A stretch of 64,000 bases of DNA, taken from Bacteroidota bacterium. Its GTDB lineage: Bacteria; Bacteroidota; Bacteroidia; AKYH767-A; JAHEYN01. Positions 1,871 through 51,452 of the stretch are shown here, piece after piece. Below the pieces are notes generated by a model, which saw only the letters and a program-made list of their open reading frames with translations, did not search any database and had not been told where the DNA came from. The position numbers and the translations under genes were made by a program. The DNA lies in contig JAHEYN010000006.1 of the NCBI GenBank assembly GCA_023251555.1, positions 66,640 to 130,639 on the forward strand. Reading direction: 5' to 3'. Each line of letters starts with the position of its first letter. The first letter of the stretch is position 1.

Positions 1871-2226
1871 AGATAGATGTATTATTGGGCCGGGTGTGGT
1901 AAATTCATAACGGGTTGTACCAGCGAAGATACAATAATCAGGGTTATGGCACTTTTCTGATTTAGCTCCACCGGAAGGTTTTTATATCCCAAAAGAACAG
2001 GTCTGTATTTTCGGGTAAAATAATGTAAAAATTTCTGCATTACAATGTTCCCCAATATACCCATGGCTGAAACATTCAGAACAGAATTTTCATTAATCCG
2101 CCTTTGCATAATCTAAGCCCGCATATACCCACCTCTGCATTGCGTAATACTCGGGATATACGCTATTATGAGTTATATTTGTAGCTGATAATTAATTGTT
2201 ATGTGCCATTTTTTATTTTGGAATTA
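1871..2226. other. Intergenic region with dispersed element copy 1
   Basis: This gap separates the divergent SBBP gene and the orphan gene at 2227. The first ~240 bases are AT-rich and hold nothing I recognise; a 75-codon reverse reading frame there has no protein-like features. The last ~95 bases are the dispersed element listed separately. Confidence 0.5.
2111..2206 (+). repeat. Dispersed promoter-bearing element, copy 1
   Basis: This stretch matches the reverse complement of 49893-49999. A 42-nt left block agrees at about 36 positions; a 49-nt right block (GATATACGCTATTATG ... TTAATTGTTATG) agrees at 47. The spacer between them differs in length, with about 14 extra bases in the other copy. 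Inside are inverted arms (GCATATACCC / GGGATATACGC) that could form a stem, and an exact Bacteroidota -7 box TATATTTG at 2174-2181. It ends about 20 bases before the ATG of an AT-rich orphan gene, and copy 2 has the same relation to its own orphan gene. The similarity is read directly from the sequence; a role as promoter or mobile cassette boundary is inference. Confidence 0.7.
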
Positions 2227-2892
2227 ATGAATCCATATCATGTCTTAGAAAATTATTTTTCAAACAGAAAAAATTTATTTTCCGAATTCTCACTGTTTGA
2301 AGCAGGATTTTATGATTTTGGGTATGTGTTAGATTTATATTACAAGCTGCCTTTTAAAAAATACGATGGTTTGGAGAAATACAAGGAATGCGAATTAAGA
2401 GTACTTTTTAAAAATGCCGATGATAGTCGAAGCAGCGGGGGGGCTTATTATAGCCAAGAAAGTATCTATGACAGATATTTACGCTACTGTGAAAACACTC
2501 AAATTAGGACGCCAATTAACATAGATAAATTTTCTGAAATATTTACACTTAAATTCGAGACCCCAATTGAACAATATATAAATGAGAATAGCACAATCAA
2601 TGAACTCTTTGATATTGGATTTGATATTGGAATTTTTTCAAAATTATTTCATAAGTTCAGCGATAAGAATATTCCTAAAAAAATAGTGAGTTGGTTTTAT
2701 AAAACTTCCAAAGTGAATTCGTTTCTTTATTTTACCGTAATGACTTCGGAAGAATTTGCTTGTAAAGGAATAGATGACATTTATACACAAGAAGATATAT
2801 CAGAACTTAAAGCTTGTTTTCCTGGAAAAGTAGTTGAAATGTTTAGATGTGATTCATTCGAAACATATTTAATAAGGAAAAACGTAGAGTGA
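2227..2892 (+). CDS. Hypothetical protein, AT-rich orphan
   Basis: A 221-residue soluble protein that I do not recognise. It has no signal peptide or membrane segment and is rich in Phe, Tyr, Lys and Asn. A conspicuous stretch is 'NSTINELFDIGFDIGIFSKLF' near residues 130-150. I start it at ATG 2227; an in-frame GTG at 2203 would add eight residues but falls inside the conserved repeat. Its base composition is much more AT-rich than the flanking housekeeping genes, it stands alone, and it lies between the dispersed element (2111-2206) and the palindromic repeat cluster (2951-3090). These traits suggest horizontally acquired cargo. Function unknown. Confidence 0.65.
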   Translation: MNPYHVLENYFSNRKNLFSEFSLFEAGFYDFGYVLDLYYKLPFKKYDGLEKYKECELRVLFKNADDSRSSGGAYYSQESIYDRYLRYCENTQIRTPINIDKFSEIFTLKFETPIEQYINENSTINELFDIGFDIGIFSKLFHKFSDKNIPKKIVSWFYKTSKVNSFLYFTVMTSEEFACKGIDDIYTQEDISELKACFPGKVVEMFRCDSFETYLIRKNVE

Positions 2893-2950
2893 ATCCAAGA
2901 ATAAAATAAAATCATCGCGGTAGACAAATTAGTAATCACCGACAAATAAT

Positions 2951-3090
2951 TTAATCCGCCTTCGCGTTCCGCTACGGCGGACGAGAGAGTTTGGTTCAAT
3001 TTCCCGCAGTTTACTGCGGAATTCTCCGCCTTCGTGTTCCGCTACGGCGGACAAGAGGGTCCAGGGCTTGCTCCGGGGTTAATACCAATT
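2951..3090. repeat. Modular palindromic repeat cluster, copy 1 (units A-B-A-C)
   Basis: Unit A is an imperfect palindrome with TCCGCC / GGCGGA ends around a GTTCCGCTAC core. Unit B contains CCGCAGTTTACTGCGG, a 7-bp stem with a 2-base loop. Unit C is a GGGCTTGCTCCGGGG block followed by TTAATACCAATTTA. A occurs twice here, at 2955-2981 and 3026-3052. The same units recur in reverse order at 36536-36745 and, degenerate, at 50107-50292. It lies between the orphan gene and the 3' end of the polyprenyl synthase gene, so a transcription-termination or REP-like role is possible. Confidence 0.8.
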
Positions 3091-46252: not shown

Positions 46253-46531
46253 GGACGGCGTGAGAATGATGTTTTGTTAGAAGCCATCTTAAAATATGTT
46301 TTCGGCGTTTTCAAGCATTTTTTCTTCAGGCGAGGCATTTTTAGAGGCCCATACAGGAGGGAGTCTGGGCAATAAAAATAACGAAGCTTACAGGCGTGTT
46401 TTATGGTTTAAAAAAAATCGCGGGAAGCGAAATGGGGAGGGATATTAACAGGAAGTGCCGGCTTATCAACAATTTCGGTGCTGAGACACCCTATAGTGCC
46501 CCCGATCGCCCGTTTTTGTTCACTGCCATAT
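46253..46531. other. Non-coding stretch left of the insertion sequence
   Basis: About 280 bases without a credible gene. The first part holds the short repeat 'AGAAGCCATCT...' (46279-46312), which also occurs at 15320. The remainder shows no terminator or RNA gene that I can identify. It may be the remains of an older mobile element next to the IS. Confidence 0.4.
46279..46312. repeat. Short dispersed repeat end 'AGAAGCCATCT', copy 2
   Basis: AGAAGCCATCTTAAAATATG and the next ~14 bases match 15320-15355 at roughly 80% with one gap. Similarity does not extend beyond. Confidence 0.35.
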
Positions 46532-46597
46532 TGTTCTAACCCCCTAATTGGCTAGACAAAACTTAAAGAATAGTTTTGTACCGCTAAATTAGGAAAA

Positions 46598-46918
46598 ATG
46601 GAAAACAAGAAAAGAAAGTTTACCCCTGAAGAGAAGCTAAGCCTTCTCCAGGAAGCAGATCGTGAAGGAGCTGCAGTAACGTGCAGGAAGTACAACATCT
46701 CACACAGTTTAATCAGCCATTGGAAGAAGAAGTACCTGGGACAAGGGCTTCAGGGTCTTAAGGCTGCCTACAAGCGGGTAGATCCGGCTGTTAGGGCACT
46801 GGAAGATGAGAATGATCGACTCAAGAGGATCATAGCCAAGCAGACGATTGAACTAGAGTTTAAGACAGAGCTGTTGAAAGCAGCTGAGATCGACCCATTA
46901 AAAAAAAAGAGATGGTAA
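46598..46918 (+). CDS. IS3-family transposase OrfA
   Basis: A 106-residue helix-turn-helix protein ('KRKFTPEEKLSLLQEADREG', 'CRKYNISHSLISHWKKKYLG') with a leucine-zipper-like C-terminal part ('DENDRLKRIIAKQTIELEFK'). Near its end lies the slippery heptamer A-AAA-AAG (46903-46909) in the correct phase. A -1 shift there leads straight into orfB and would make the OrfAB fusion transposase. Confidence 0.92.
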   Translation: MENKKRKFTPEEKLSLLQEADREGAAVTCRKYNISHSLISHWKKKYLGQGLQGLKAAYKRVDPAVRALEDENDRLKRIIAKQTIELEFKTELLKAAEIDPLKKKRW

Positions 46919-47868
46919 AGCGGTTTTCGGATAAAGTCGAAGTGATGGACCTTTGCACCTGGGCATGTATTCCCAGAAGCGTTTACTATTACCGTAATAC
47001 GGATGGTAAGCCCGGAGTAAAGCCCAGCACCCATACGTTCACATTAGACGGAGGCAGAGTTGAAAACAGCAGGGTCATAGAAGAGATACAGAACATTTTA
47101 AAGCAGGAATTTGTTTCTTATGGATATGATCTGGTCAATGAAGAATTAAGGGATATGAGGTACATTATCAACCCCAAAAAGACCTACCGGCTGATGGATG
47201 AAAATAACCTCTTGATGGGTAAGCGTATCCATACCACCGGTAAGCGGGATTTTGTGAAGTTCCGTAAAATCACGGCTGCCTATCCCATGGAACACCTGTG
47301 CATGGACATCAAGTATGTTTGGGTGGAAGGAGAACATAGAAATTATTATCTGCTCACCGTGCTCGATGTATTTAGCCGCAAGGCTGTTGAATGGATATTT
47401 CTCCCCTCTATCCGCAAATACCAGGTCATTAGCCTCTTTATGCGGATGGCATCACAGTACGATGTAAAGGGCGTTACCGTTCGTAATGACAATGGCAGCC
47501 AGTTCATAGCAAATAACGTTCGTAAGTATCTCAAGGAGATTGAAATGAAACAGGAGTTCTCCCATATCAGCACCCCGCAGGACAATGGCTATATCGAAGG
47601 ATTCTTCAGCAATCTCAGACGTGACCTGCTGAGCAAAACTGAATTCTACAGCTACTACGAGGCCAAGCTAAAGATAGAGGCCTACATGGAGCATTACAAC
47701 CACAAACGCAAGCACAGGAGAATCGGAAAAATTACGCCTCAGCAAAAATGGACGGAAGGACTAAAAATCAAATCAATAATTAAATCAGAAACCAATTATC
47801 TTTACACCGAAAATCAAATCAAAAATCAACCCAAGGTCGAAACTGTTTTTGAAATTATGTCTAACTAA
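46912..47868 (+). CDS. IS3-family transposase OrfB (DDE integrase core)
   Basis: A 318-residue DDE recombinase. The first Asp is in 'LCMDIKYVWVEGEHRNYYLL', the second in 'VTVRNDNGSQFIANNVRKYL' and the Glu in 'QDNGYIEGFFSNLRRDLLSK'; the C-terminal 'HYNHKRKHRRIGKITPQQKW' is typical. An HTH_21-like segment ('VSYGYDLVNEELRDMRYIIN') precedes the core. It lies in the -1 frame relative to orfA with a 7-base overlap and has its own ATG, so OrfB could also be made alone. Confidence 0.94.
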   Translation: MVKRFSDKVEVMDLCTWACIPRSVYYYRNTDGKPGVKPSTHTFTLDGGRVENSRVIEEIQNILKQEFVSYGYDLVNEELRDMRYIINPKKTYRLMDENNLLMGKRIHTTGKRDFVKFRKITAAYPMEHLCMDIKYVWVEGEHRNYYLLTVLDVFSRKAVEWIFLPSIRKYQVISLFMRMASQYDVKGVTVRNDNGSQFIANNVRKYLKEIEMKQEFSHISTPQDNGYIEGFFSNLRRDLLSKTEFYSYYEAKLKIEAYMEHYNHKRKHRRIGKITPQQKWTEGLKIKSIIKSETNYLYTENQIKNQPKVETVFEIMSN

Positions 47869-47955
47869 TAGGGGGTTAGAACAGTTATGCACAGGGCGTT
47901 TCTGTCCGATGAAATGCGGAAGTGTCAACCGAGAAAGAAACAAACCAATGATGAT

Positions 47956-49521
47956 TTACTCTTTAATAATTTTTGTGTCTTTTATAACAGTCCCTTTGCT
48001 GTCGGATAACCGAACAAAATAAATACCTGTCGGTAAAGTAGAAATATCAATAGTGTTTGTCATTGCTGTCTTGAAGATAAGTTGTCCGAATGAATTGTAA
48101 AGCGTAACTGTCCCAGTTGATAAACCTGTAATAAAAATTTTGTCTGCTGTCGGGTTAGGAAAAATATTTATCTGATTTGATGTGCTCGTTAAATTATTAT
48201 TTGTGCCTGTTGTAATTCCTGAATTACAAAAAATATCATTAATTTCTGTTTGAGTTAAAGCACGATTATAAATTAAAATATCGTCAATGTCTCCATTGAA
48301 GAAGGCAGGATAAAGAACATCGTGATTTGATTTACCAATAAAATTTCGTTGTCCTGTTGTGGTGTAAGAAGGAATTGTCCCCGATTGGTCGAGCGTTGCG
48401 TCAACATAAGTTTTAATATTTCCTGCTCCGTCATAAACAGTTCCCACAAGATGCCATTGACTGTTATTGATTGTTGCACCAGCAGCAGGGTAAAAGTCAT
48501 TATTGTATCCCATCACGCCAAGTGTTGCAGTTCCGTAATTTACAATGAGATTAAACGCTGTTCCTGTACTTGTCGTGTCTCCTGTTGCAACGATTGCCAT
48601 AGAAGTTGAACCGCTAAACTTTACCCAAGAAAAAATTGAACGAGCAGTATTTCCAGTTGCGGCAACGCTCGGAACAGAAATAAAAGAACTTCCATTAAAA
48701 TTATATGCGGCATTTGAATTTCCAAAACGGTCTGTTGTCAGAGTTGCTCCATTGTTTGTTCCATTATAGTTGTTTCCGCTAATGTCGTTGGTATTTCCAG
48801 AGAACGGATATTCTGCTACCAGTCCACTTGTCGGAATAGTGCAATTTGTCGCGTTAAATATTTGTGTTATCTCTGTTTGTGTTAAAGCACGATTGTAAAT
48901 TAAAATGTCGTCAATGTCTCCATTGAAATAAGCGGGGTAAAGATTATCATCATTTGATTTGCCAATAAAATTACGCTGTCCCGTTGTACTGTAGGATGGA
49001 ATAGTTCCTGATTGGTCAAGGTTTGCGTCAACATAAGTTTTAATATTTCCTGCTCCGTCATAAACAGTTCCCACAAGATGCCATTGACTGTTATTGATTG
49101 TTGCACCAGCAGCAGGGTAAAAGTCATTATTGTATCCCATCACGCCAAGTGTTGCAGTTCCGTAATTTACAATGAGATTAAACGCTGTTCCTGTACTTGT
49201 CGTGTCTCCTGTTGCAACGATTGCCATAGAAGTTGAACCGCTAAACTTTACCCAAGAAAAAATTGAACGAGCAGTATTTCCAGTTGCGGCAACGCTCGGA
49301 ACAGAAATAAAAGAACTTCCATTAAAATTATATGCGGCATTTGAATTTCCAAAACGGTCTGTTGTCAGAGTTGCTCCATTGTTTGTTCCATTATAGTTGT
49401 TTCCGCTAATGTCATTAGCATTTCCATTGAAAGGATAACGCCCAACAAGTCCGTTAGTTGGAATTTGTGCAAAAGCATTAAATGATAACGCTACAATTGC
49501 AGTTGTAAATATTTTTTTCAT
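47956..49521 (-). CDS. Secreted protein with two tandem LamG-like domains and T9SS type A tail
   Basis: A 521-residue exported protein. A signal peptide (1-18, ending 'NAFA') precedes two near-identical ~209-residue LamG/concanavalin-like domains. Each begins 'GLVxxYPFxGNxNDISGNNYNG' and has 'ARSIFSWVKFSGSTSMAIVA', 'QWHLVGTVYDGAGNIKTYVD' and 'GDIDDILIYNRALTQTEI'. A type A sorting domain follows ('INIFPNPTADKIFITGLSTG' ... 'STLPTGIYFVRLSDSKG'). It is expected to be surface-bound and to bind carbohydrate. The DNA is AT-rich and lies beside an insertion sequence, which points to acquired DNA. Confidence 0.93.
   Translation of the reverse strand: MKKIFTTAIVALSFNAFAQIPTNGLVGRYPFNGNANDISGNNYNGTNNGATLTTDRFGNSNAAYNFNGSSFISVPSVAATGNTARSIFSWVKFSGSTSMAIVATGDTTSTGTAFNLIVNYGTATLGVMGYNNDFYPAAGATINNSQWHLVGTVYDGAGNIKTYVDANLDQSGTIPSYSTTGQRNFIGKSNDDNLYPAYFNGDIDDILIYNRALTQTEITQIFNATNCTIPTSGLVAEYPFSGNTNDISGNNYNGTNNGATLTTDRFGNSNAAYNFNGSSFISVPSVAATGNTARSIFSWVKFSGSTSMAIVATGDTTSTGTAFNLIVNYGTATLGVMGYNNDFYPAAGATINNSQWHLVGTVYDGAGNIKTYVDATLDQSGTIPSYTTTGQRNFIGKSNHDVLYPAFFNGDIDDILIYNRALTQTEINDIFCNSGITTGTNNNLTSTSNQINIFPNPTADKIFITGLSTGTVTLYNSFGQLIFKTAMTNTIDISTLPTGIYFVRLSDSKGTVIKDTKIIKE
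48398..48786 (-). repeat. Internal tandem duplication, distal copy
   Basis: These 389 bases look identical to 49025-49413 (period 627 bases = 209 codons). The flanking parts of the same LamG repeat units differ at many positions, so only the middle is homogeneous. Confidence 0.85.
49025..49413 (-). repeat. Internal tandem duplication, proximal copy
   Basis: Partner of 48398-48786. The identical core begins at the GCGTCAACATAAG sequence and ends at CCGCTAATGTC in both copies. Confidence 0.85.
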
Positions 49522-49559
49522 TTGAGTTAGGGTTTTTAAAAGTTAATTGATTAAATGAA

Positions 49560-49853
49560 TTATAATATTCCTAATTTTTCAGCAATATTTTGTCCTCTCA
49601 TTTTATGAGCATTTTCACAAATGAATGATTCAAATTTTTCATTCAGTACATTCTCTATTTCTGAAGAATGCTCCTTAATTATTTTTTTTAGTAATTTGTT
49701 TAAATCTTTCTTAGCACATCCTCGGTTCATCATTTCTTTGTATAAATTTTTTCTATTGAATTTATAAAAAGCAGAATTGTCGCAATAAATTGTGTCGCTT
49801 TTTATTCGGACATTTTTATTGAATTTGTTCATAGAGTTAAAATTGTCTGCCAT
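49560..49853 (-). CDS. Small hypothetical protein
   Basis: A 97-residue basic, soluble protein that I do not recognise ('NKNVRIKSDTIYCDNSAFYK', 'KKDLNKLLKKIIKEHSSEIE'). It is AT-rich like the LamG gene 38 bases further on, and is possibly cotranscribed with it. The dispersed element copy 2 lies 40 bases upstream, and a TAACTTTG box lies two bases before its ATG. Confidence 0.6.
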   Translation of the reverse strand: MADNFNSMNKFNKNVRIKSDTIYCDNSAFYKFNRKNLYKEMMNRGCAKKDLNKLLKKIIKEHSSEIENVLNEKFESFICENAHKMRGQNIAEKLGIL

Positions 49854-49855
49854 TG

Positions 49856-49863
49856 CAAAGTTA
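49856..49863 (-). promoter_or_regulatory. Candidate -7 box at the 97-residue gene
   Basis: TAACTTTG on the reverse strand, an exact TAnnTTTG match, ending two bases before the ATG at 49853. A second box, TATATTTG at 49917-49924, lies in the dispersed element. Confidence 0.35.
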
Positions 49864-49892
49864 ATTTAAAATACTGTCGTTTTTTCGCCTTG

Positions 49893-49999
49893 TGCATAAC
49901 AATTAATTATCGGCTACAAATATAACCCATAATAGCGTATATCAAGCACATGTTGTGGAGTATCACGCAATATAGAGGTGGATATACGCAGGCTTAGAT
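49893..49999 (-). repeat. Dispersed promoter-bearing element, copy 2
   Basis: Reverse-complement match of 2111-2206. It contains perfect 9-bp inverted arms (GCGTATATC / GATATACGC) about 40 bases apart, a spacer with ~14 bases more than copy 1, and the conserved TATATTTG box (49917-49924). It ends at GTTATG, 40 bases upstream of the small orphan gene, the same polarity to the gene as copy 1. Confidence 0.7.
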
Positions 50000-50106
50000 A
50001 TTGAGATTTTCGAGGTGACTTTGAATTTTTCAACTATAGAAGAGAACTACTACGCTTTTGACTCGACACCACATGAAAAAAACAAACAGAAAGGTGATTT
50101 AATTAA

Positions 50107-50292
50107 AATGGTATTATAACCCCCAAGGCAAATCCCGGACTCTCTTGTCCGCCATAGCGAATGCGGAATGAACCACCTCGCCGCAAGCAGCGAGGTATCT
50201 TAAGGGAATTTGATCATCATTGCGCAGCAAGCTGCGGGGAATTAACCCAAGACCTTCCCGTCCGCCGTAGCGGAACGCGAAGGCGGATTAAA
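50107..50292. repeat. Modular palindromic repeat cluster, copy 3 (degenerate)
   Basis: The order is C', a decayed A', an extra palindrome (CCTCGCCGCAAGCAGCGAGG), B' (CGCAGCAAGCTGCGG) and an intact A' ending GGCGGATTAAAAAAAG. The last A' and the TTAAAAA that follows match the recJ-proximal end of copy 2. It lies past the 3' end of the Fic gene. Confidence 0.75.
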
Positions 50293-50354: not shown

Positions 50355-51452
50355 TTAGAAGTCTGTGAGTTCATAATTTGTGCTTCGTCCGCCTTGCTGT
50401 TCTTGTCCTAAAATACCCTTTTCTATCAAATCCTTTATGTCACGTAATGCTGTATCAGGTGAGCATTTGGCTATTTTTGCCCACTTTGATGATTTTAATT
50501 TGCCATCAAATCCGTCAAACAATTTATTAAGCACTAATCGTTGTCGCTTGTTTAACTCGGTGTTTTCGTGAATCTTCCAGAATTCCGTCTTACGTAATAT
50601 TTTCTGAAGTGTAATTTCTGTTGTTAGTAAAGCATTTTTTAGGCAATGAAGAAACCATTCTAACCAGTCAGTAATGTCGCCACTGCTGTGTTGCATCTTT
50701 TGTAATATCTCATAATATTGCTTTCTTTCCACTAACATTTGACTTGACATACTGTAATACCTTTCGGTGCTTTTGTCACCACGGGCAAGCATTAAATCGG
50801 AAATCGCTCTGGCTATTCTTCCGTTGCCGTCATCAAAAGGGTGAATGATAATAAACCAAAAGTGAGCAATGGCTGCTTTAAGCACAAGGTCAATTTTTGA
50901 ATTGTCGTTGAACCAATTTAAAAATTCGTCCATCTCATTTTTAACCTGATGTGCAGGGATTGCTTCATAATGAACTTTTTCTTTACCCATTGCTCCTGAA
51001 ACTATTTGCATTTCTCCAGAACGATAACGACCTACTTCAATTTTGTGCATTCCGCTGTGTCCGGTCGGGAACAATGCTGAATGCCATCCAAATAGCCGTT
51101 TATTTGTCAATGGTTTCTGATAGTTTTGAGTTGCATCAAGCATCATTTCCACAATGCCCTCCACGTTTCTGTTAGTTGGAGCTAATCCGGCAACGTTAAT
51201 ACCCAATCGTCTTGCAATAGATGAACGAACTTGTTCGTAGTCGAGTTTTTCACCTTCTATCTCCGATGATTTAATAACGTCAAGCGTTAGTGTGGTAAGA
51301 GCGGCTTCTTCTTTTGTCGCAAAACCAAGTGTGTTCATCTGTCCAATTATCTTTCCTTGAAGATTTCGGACTTCTCCAAATATGGCATTAATAGAAGTTG
51401 CCTGCCAGGTGAAATTTGTCCGGTTTTTATTATCGTAAATGTATTTTGCCAC
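50355..51452 (-). CDS. Fic family protein (DUF4172-type N-terminus)
   Basis: A 365-residue Fic protein, expected to transfer AMP (or another nucleotide moiety) to protein targets. The active-site loop is intact: 'HPFDDGNGRIARA' (204-216, HPFx[D/E]GNGR). An inhibitory motif of the (S/T)xxxE(G/N) type precedes the Fic fold ('KSSEIEGEKL', residues 62-67), which makes this a self-restrained class II protein. The N-terminal ~80 residues resemble DUF4172, and the C-terminus (~290-365) looks like a winged helix ('SKWAKIAKCSPDTALRDIKD'). The start is GTG 51452. It stands alone in an AT-rich accessory island, with no small antitoxin gene. Confidence 0.93.
   Translation of the reverse strand: MAKYIYDNKNRTNFTWQATSINAIFGEVRNLQGKIIGQMNTLGFATKEEAALTTLTLDVIKSSEIEGEKLDYEQVRSSIARRLGINVAGLAPTNRNVEGIVEMMLDATQNYQKPLTNKRLFGWHSALFPTGHSGMHKIEVGRYRSGEMQIVSGAMGKEKVHYEAIPAHQVKNEMDEFLNWFNDNSKIDLVLKAAIAHFWFIIIHPFDDGNGRIARAISDLMLARGDKSTERYYSMSSQMLVERKQYYEILQKMQHSSGDITDWLEWFLHCLKNALLTTEITLQKILRKTEFWKIHENTELNKRQRLVLNKLFDGFDGKLKSSKWAKIAKCSPDTALRDIKDLIEKGILGQEQQGGRSTNYELTDF

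Follow-up and report, generated by a model that had tools for sequence, protein, structure and literature searches.

The small repeat found at two places in the window (by which we mean the whole stretch of 64,000 nucleotides analysed) is very probably the truncated head of a reverse-type integron, made up of an integrase tail, an attI site and a putative cassette promoter, Pc. This identity is indicated by the conserved GTTA at which the element ends, the cassettes with complementary ends that follow it, the integrase tails that precede it, and the layout of intact platforms in related genomes.

The two window copies lie at 2111-2206 (+ strand) and 49999-49893 (- strand) and share a 42-nt block (36 matches) and a 49-nt block (47 matches), with a spacer of variable length between them (2 versus 14 nt), as the first-pass annotation had described. 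When the whole genome holding the window (G000; 2.84 Mb in 55 contigs, 97% complete and 0.15% contaminated) was searched, ten copies were found on eight contigs with E values from 4.8e-50 to 2.0e-21, which excludes chance. The earlier observation withstood this search for further copies and for their orientation to genes. The right end is intact in eight of the ten copies; copy C20 stops after TTTGTAG, and copy C16 continues into an attC-like hairpin. At the C16 junction (C16:17985-18148; L084), the left half of the head joins the interior of the hairpin before an Mrr-like gene, and it looks as if the head and the attC-like hairpin had recombined or been deleted together. The polarity seen in the window recurred, a long ORF on the same strand being located 5-390 nt past GTTA in seven of the eight intact copies, and the genes behind the copies are indeed unrelated to one another. 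Right of GTTA in the eighth intact copy, C31, there is only a broken frame.

The borders first assigned to the element had to be moved. GTTATG does end both window copies, but the conserved part is GTTA only; the letters after it (TG, GG, GC, TA or CC, depending on the copy) belong to the downstream cassette. The left border was placed too far inside, since most copies reach ~20-45 nt further left, into the remnant of an integrase gene. Window copy 1 gave no match in Rfam, and exact-pattern scans of public genome and viral contigs with the element's right half gave none, which suggests that this head sequence occurs only in the species itself or its close relatives. The 24 nt of similarity detected in G022 and G039, a promoter ahead of a glycosyltransferase-like gene, were rejected as chance. 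The locus of window copy 1 comprises the following features:

2108..2116, + strand: last remnant of the integrase 3' end, ATA ATC TAA, the rest of the tail being lost (alignment with nine copies, tail translation)
2117..2197, + strand: attI segment, from the integrase stop to GTTA (alignment)
2174..2181, + strand: TATATTTG, putative -7 box of Pc (invariance among copies, family enrichment)
2187..2201, + strand: core GATAATTAATTGTTA (alignment)
2198-2201, + strand: GTTA, end of the conserved element (alignment)
2227..2892, + strand: AT-rich orphan gene, the first right of the head (221 aa from ATG; 229 aa from GTG 2203)

Owing to a 12-nt deletion, the attI segment of copy 1 measures 82 nt, while that of other copies measures 96 nt. 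Recombination at its core would probably take place at G|TTA. Neither an attC nor a closing R'' was found for the orphan gene when these were looked for. The gene neighbouring copy 1 was followed in four relatives as an empty-site comparison, and synteny ends at this gene. Repeats of the form TTAATCCGCCTTCGCGTTCCGCTACGGCGGACGAGAG lie beside both head loci (window 2950-3060 and 50180-50290) and have the look of terminator-type hairpins.

As for the left edge, the sequence ahead of ...ATCTAAGCC reads as an in-frame integrase C-terminus followed by a stop (...SNIQSPLDKLNI). The tails end in SKIQSPLDKLNI (C51), SNIQSSLYKPDI (C20), IQSHLENLNI (window copy 2), NQSHLDKLNI (C16) and SPLEKLNI (C8), each directly before the stop, and of the 14,480 stop codons of the DNA around them, 5 are preceded by a motif of this form. 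Integrases of relatives, retrieved with the C31 fragment as a query, terminate in QQIRSPFDSL, QIKSPLDGLDL, LQHIRSPFDDL and similar sequences. The element has 96 nt between the integrase stop and GTTA; in the intact platforms of relatives the distance is mostly 92-105 nt. It is this matching spacing, together with the in-frame tail, that points to an element composed of integrase tail, attI and putative Pc. In G000 the tails are short (0-14 codons, mostly 6-14), and several contain frameshifts or substitutions. No intact integrase was found in the G000 assembly, nor was any integrase remnant beyond the tail found upstream of the dispersed copies; the integrase in cis that belongs to an integron platform is therefore absent from these sites. 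A larger integrase remnant exists in G000 only at C31:37385, where a frameshifted C-terminal piece is accompanied by an attI of its own (GGGTATAAACAAGTTAGCGG) and by an array. This region (C31:37385-40000; L087 4385-7000) is a second decayed reverse-integron platform and comprises EIISPFDD before the stop, TACATTTG, attI and an array running on the + strand, one attC of which resembles a hybrid of two different attCs. Two other integrase matches were discarded, the one on C27 being XerD and the one on C23, by inspection, XerC.

As for the right edge, alignment of the eight intact copies shows conservation up to GTTA and unrelated DNA past it, with NNNN-CAA after GTTA in six of them. In C51, C8 and window copy 2, the start and the end of the following segment are complementary at 13 of 14 positions (in C51 the segment is 3.46 kb long, starting with GTTATAGCCAATGC and ending with GCACTGGCTATAAC); we estimate that ~0.0015 matches that good are expected by chance per copy in the stretch searched. 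Closed cassettes are thus present at three of the eight intact copies, the attC of the others being lost or beyond the stretch read. The conserved end with a G|TT core that characterizes attI is thus present by sequence in all eight copies, and cassettes with complementary ends directly follow it in three. The suggestion of a cassette-like unit was a good hunch; the genes are separate cassettes joining the head at GTTA. The cassette of window copy 2 lies in the following context:

49997..50025, - strand: integrase tail, in frame IQSHLENLNI (tail translation)
49994..49996, - strand: integrase stop TAA (coordinates)
49901..49993, - strand: attI segment with inverted arms GCGTATATC/GATATACGC (alignment)
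49917..49924, - strand: TATATTTG, putative -7 box of Pc (alignment)
49897..49900, - strand: GTTA, right end of the head and start of the cassette (alignment)
47884..49899, - strand: gene cassette of ~2.0 kb (start/end complementarity)
49853-49560, - strand: gene of a 97-aa orphan in the cassette
49521-47956, - strand: gene of a 521-aa laminin-G/secretion-tail protein in the cassette
47890-47884, - strand: closing R'' of the cassette, GCATAAC (complementary to the cassette start, 13/14)
46532..47883, strand not assigned: IS3-like insertion sequence with two ORFs and the ends TGTTCTAAC.../...GTTAGAACA

The IS3-like element adjoins R'' directly, exactly where the attC of this cassette is expected. 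Directly upstream of copy 2, a Fic/DUF4172 gene (window 50355-51452, - strand) is present in the same polarity.

The closing ends of C51 and C8 are followed by a textbook attC of ~128 nt (TAAC AGC...GGCGG ... CCGCC...GC AAAAC GTTA). Imperfect attC hairpins of 128 nt with strong folds, between R'' (..AAC) and R' (GTT..), are present in C51, C8 and C31. Most hits of a crude attC scan based on folding were false positives, and three sites were kept for a covariance model, R1, which added two sites at C52, one at C20 and the one at the C16 junction. Most head loci possess one attC-like site or none, and the two at C52 are without a detected head. In C55 and C22 (L015, L017), the cassettes start with GTTAGC...(~20 nt)...GCTAAC; this small inverted repeat of the 5' leader could be either what is left of a cassette end or a hairpin with a regulatory role.

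Right of the heads, the following genes were recognized, by profile where a family is named:

C51: Vsr, XRE-like protein, cytosine methyltransferase and restriction enzyme, then an AAA ATPase resembling AriA/GajA
C22: type I restriction-modification genes in the order S-M-S
C8: GmrSD_N/NsnA-like protein and HEPN
C16: Mrr-like nuclease
C20: DEAD/UvrD helicase matching DpdF/GajB profiles
Window copy 1: orphan
Window copy 2: orphan and laminin-G protein
C55: DUF6804 and TMEM175
C10:39321: metallo-beta-lactamase-fold protein

Several of these head-adjacent genes are candidate anti-phage defence genes, their functions being assigned by profile only. Some segments that follow the G000 heads are operons and exceed the usual length of a cassette. 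Solo heads might accordingly serve as a marker for captured genes, with restriction-modification, GmrSD/HEPN, Mrr and other candidate defence genes to be sought right of GTTA.

Intact platforms were found among relatives. The placement of the group in the Bacteroidota is based on the named public relatives, the promoter type and secretion-tail domains. At E<=1e-45, an integrase was detected in 79 of 149 genomes related to G000, usually one to three per genome, while none was detected at this threshold in G000 and the same-family genome G001. Flavobacterium aciduliphilum (L091) has, past its integrase and on the strand of that gene, TATATTTG, an inverted repeat and GTTATGCC, beyond which lie a DNA cytosine methyltransferase-like gene and a second gene, an attC (91 bits), a further gene and a second attC. 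The arrangement of a reverse integron, with everything on one strand and attI after the integrase stop, is thus seen directly in L091 and others, and in G000 through the orientation of the tails. The box TATATTTG, which had been noted as invariant in the window pair, proved invariant in all copies reaching that far, except for a context base in C8; window copy 1 is without TTG at -33. We infer that TATATTTG is the putative Pc. In intact platforms, TANNTTTG occurs within 40 nt past the integrase stop in 22 of 50 cases (shuffles: mean 0.97, maximum 5), and this enrichment supports a promoter in intact platforms generally. For G000 this calls for caution, since its box lies close to GTTA and not shortly after the stop as in most intact platforms.

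The integrases themselves resemble canonical IntI (TIGR02249; V. cholerae 2a3v) in being tyrosine recombinases with the C-terminal motifs, an SPL(S/D) ending and adjoining cassettes. They differ in that four of them scored only 191-217 bits against TIGR02249 (cut-off 265), matching in two stretches, and in that ~40 insertion residues are missing: residues 181-242 of 2a3v (62) face only residues 273-292 (20) of the L093 query, so that the insertion typical of IntI (I2 helix region) is absent from L093. A TIGR02249 search at E 1e-60 over 42 genomes of the order returned none, this cut-off being too strict for such integrases. Compared with shuffled sequences, the attI segments form more stable folds (mean z -3.0, with 14 of 23 below -2; the element consensus, z = -2.7), and many attI sites fold like attC, in contrast to the non-palindromic attI of class 1 integrons.

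Heads without integrase were also found in other genomes. A head model, R2, was run on 147 genomes with fast filters, so that its counts are lower bounds, and gave heads in at least 43 of the 147, up to six per genome. The G000 copies themselves score below the R2 threshold; what ties them to the family is hence the tail, the spacing, the core and the cassettes, and not the overall attI sequence. In G104, which has no integrase match, two heads with tails of 10-11 codons were detected, and in G007 one head with a tail of ~14 codons. Among 20 additional heads taken from multi-head genomes, 13 were without an integrase detectable by tblastn, and eight had an attC within ~2.5 kb, always downstream and on the same strand. 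In G095, a solo head and an intact head share 97% identity over the stretch that starts 32 nt ahead of the integrase stop and ends at GTTA.

Integrons in general capture genes as circular cassettes, which their integrase inserts at the G|TTA of attI, behind Pc. Read from left to right, the head would offer the last integrase codons and stop, a hairpin-capable attI of ~96 nt, the TANNTTTG box as Pc and the G|TTA core, and a captured gene would land directly behind Pc. The ten G000 heads would then serve as fixed promoters of the cassettes that follow them now, and new capture, i.e. their use in trans, would presumably occur only with an integrase supplied from elsewhere. No claim of ongoing recombination can be made, as no intact integrase was found in G000. 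The mean identity of six G000 copies is 96% in the attI part and 81% in the tail, from which we infer that selection has kept attI and Pc for cassette expression.

Other identities of the element fit less well. It might be an attC, the end of an upstream cassette with a chance promoter, for it forms a hairpin, ends in GTTA and is followed by cassettes. We consider this very unlikely, because the left side carries an integrase tail in place of an R'' (…AAC) partner to GTTA, the DNA further left is unrelated chromosomal sequence and not cassette ends, and the true attCs of G000 look different. Even slighter is the probability that the element is a transposable unit, MITE-like or otherwise, whose promoter points outward, although it is dispersed, short, non-coding and multi-copy. 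Scattered in G000 there is a palindromic MITE-like repeat of ~167 bp with ends AGAAGCCATCTCAAAAATA... (window 46277-46387, C51:65960, C22:54123, C30:82437, C31:45932, C21:43339), which adjoins the head in C51 and C20. This true MITE-like neighbour would speak for a transposable unit, but numerous copies of it lie apart from the element. The element, moreover, begins in integrase coding sequence, ends where cassettes with complementary ends start, and displays no terminal inverted repeats at its ends in the ten-copy alignment; target-site duplication, the other mark of a MITE, could not be judged with a left end this imprecise. The earlier idea of a MITE-like unit carrying genes along was consequently abandoned: the head is the fixed platform side, and the genes are separate cassettes.

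For the truncated integron head, two origins of its dispersal can be proposed, with roughly equal chances. One, to which we give close to an even chance, is that a head of ~130-145 bp, already truncated, was copied as a defined unit to many sites, with its left end ~30-45 nt before the integrase stop and its right end at GTTA, perhaps helped by an integrase acting on the hairpin-forming attI. The dispersed G000 copies are without integrase remnant upstream of the tail, most of their tails begin 6-15 codons before the stop, both G104 heads start 10-11 codons before it, and unrelated DNA lies left of the G095 solo head that is so similar to its intact twin; a defined left end in these three genomes favours the spread of truncated heads. 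Such copying, however, has no known mechanism, the left ends vary by several nucleotides among copies, the heads of G143 and G068 bear longer integrase remnants, and C51, C20 and C22 share the junction to the abutting repeat and may be mere duplications. The other origin, to which we give somewhat less than an even chance, is that several full reverse integrons were present at first and that deletion or decay removed the integrase of each, attI and Pc being retained because they express the cassettes. The graded remnants on the G143 heads favour such decay of full copies, as do the C31 platform, which has decayed differently and left a longer frameshifted fragment, and the higher identity of attI than of tails in the six G000 copies. 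Independent deletions would nevertheless be expected anywhere in the ~350-codon gene, yet nearly all end within 15 codons of the stop, and relatives usually possess one to three integrases, not ten. A more far-reaching reading, which we regard as rather doubtful, would be that bacteria of this group run a distributed integron. A reverse integron would shed its head (the last ~10-14 integrase codons, attI and Pc, ~130-145 bp) through a specific process that brings it to many chromosomal sites, and the promoter-bearing capture sites arising in this way could be loaded by an integrase in trans, often with phage-defence genes; the shedding integron would be one whose integrase lacks the IntI-specific insertion and whose attI folds like attC.

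Both reverse integrons and CALINs are already known (PMC7691350, PMC9024848, PMC8618304). In Treponema denticola, a reverse integron is present as a single platform with an intact integrase (PMC7691350, PMC4909258). The truncated heads share with it the same direction of integrase and cassettes and the position of attI and Pc, which come after the integrase stop and before the first cassette; unlike it, G000 possesses ten heads without integrase, and the integrase group of its relatives is without the IntI-specific insertion. As this insertion is thought to have enabled single-strand recombination (PMC7790495), insertion-less enzymes residing beside attC-like cassettes might bear on how such recombination evolved. 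Cassettes of the Delta-attI type contain a truncated attI within resistance cassettes of mobile integrons (PMC12901181); the likeness is a truncated attI away from its usual place, whereas the heads described here occupy many chromosomal loci and precede the cassettes. A published survey reports that complete integrons are very rare in Bacteroidetes and names one, that of Salinibacter ruber (PMC9024848). The detection in 79 of 149 relatives suggests that the group commonly possesses reverse integrons of this type, with a non-canonical integrase, which would easily escape notice, the integrase scoring under the usual cut-off and each head having few attC. In the open-access literature searched, we found neither wide presence of this integrase type in the group nor multi-copy heads without integrase, which does not prove their absence elsewhere.

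CALINs are clusters of attC lacking an integrase (PMC9024848, PMC8618304). As in these, cassettes at the G000 heads persist without an integrase nearby; in contrast to CALINs, of which this is not required, each head locus retains attI and a putative Pc. Most head loci have zero to one recognisable attC, and a default search needing two would miss them. A CALIN-like defence cluster was observed at C52:106348-107760 (L083), where two attC-like sites, with no head found, adjoin TIR-domain, CAP12/Pycsar-TIR and primase-like genes.
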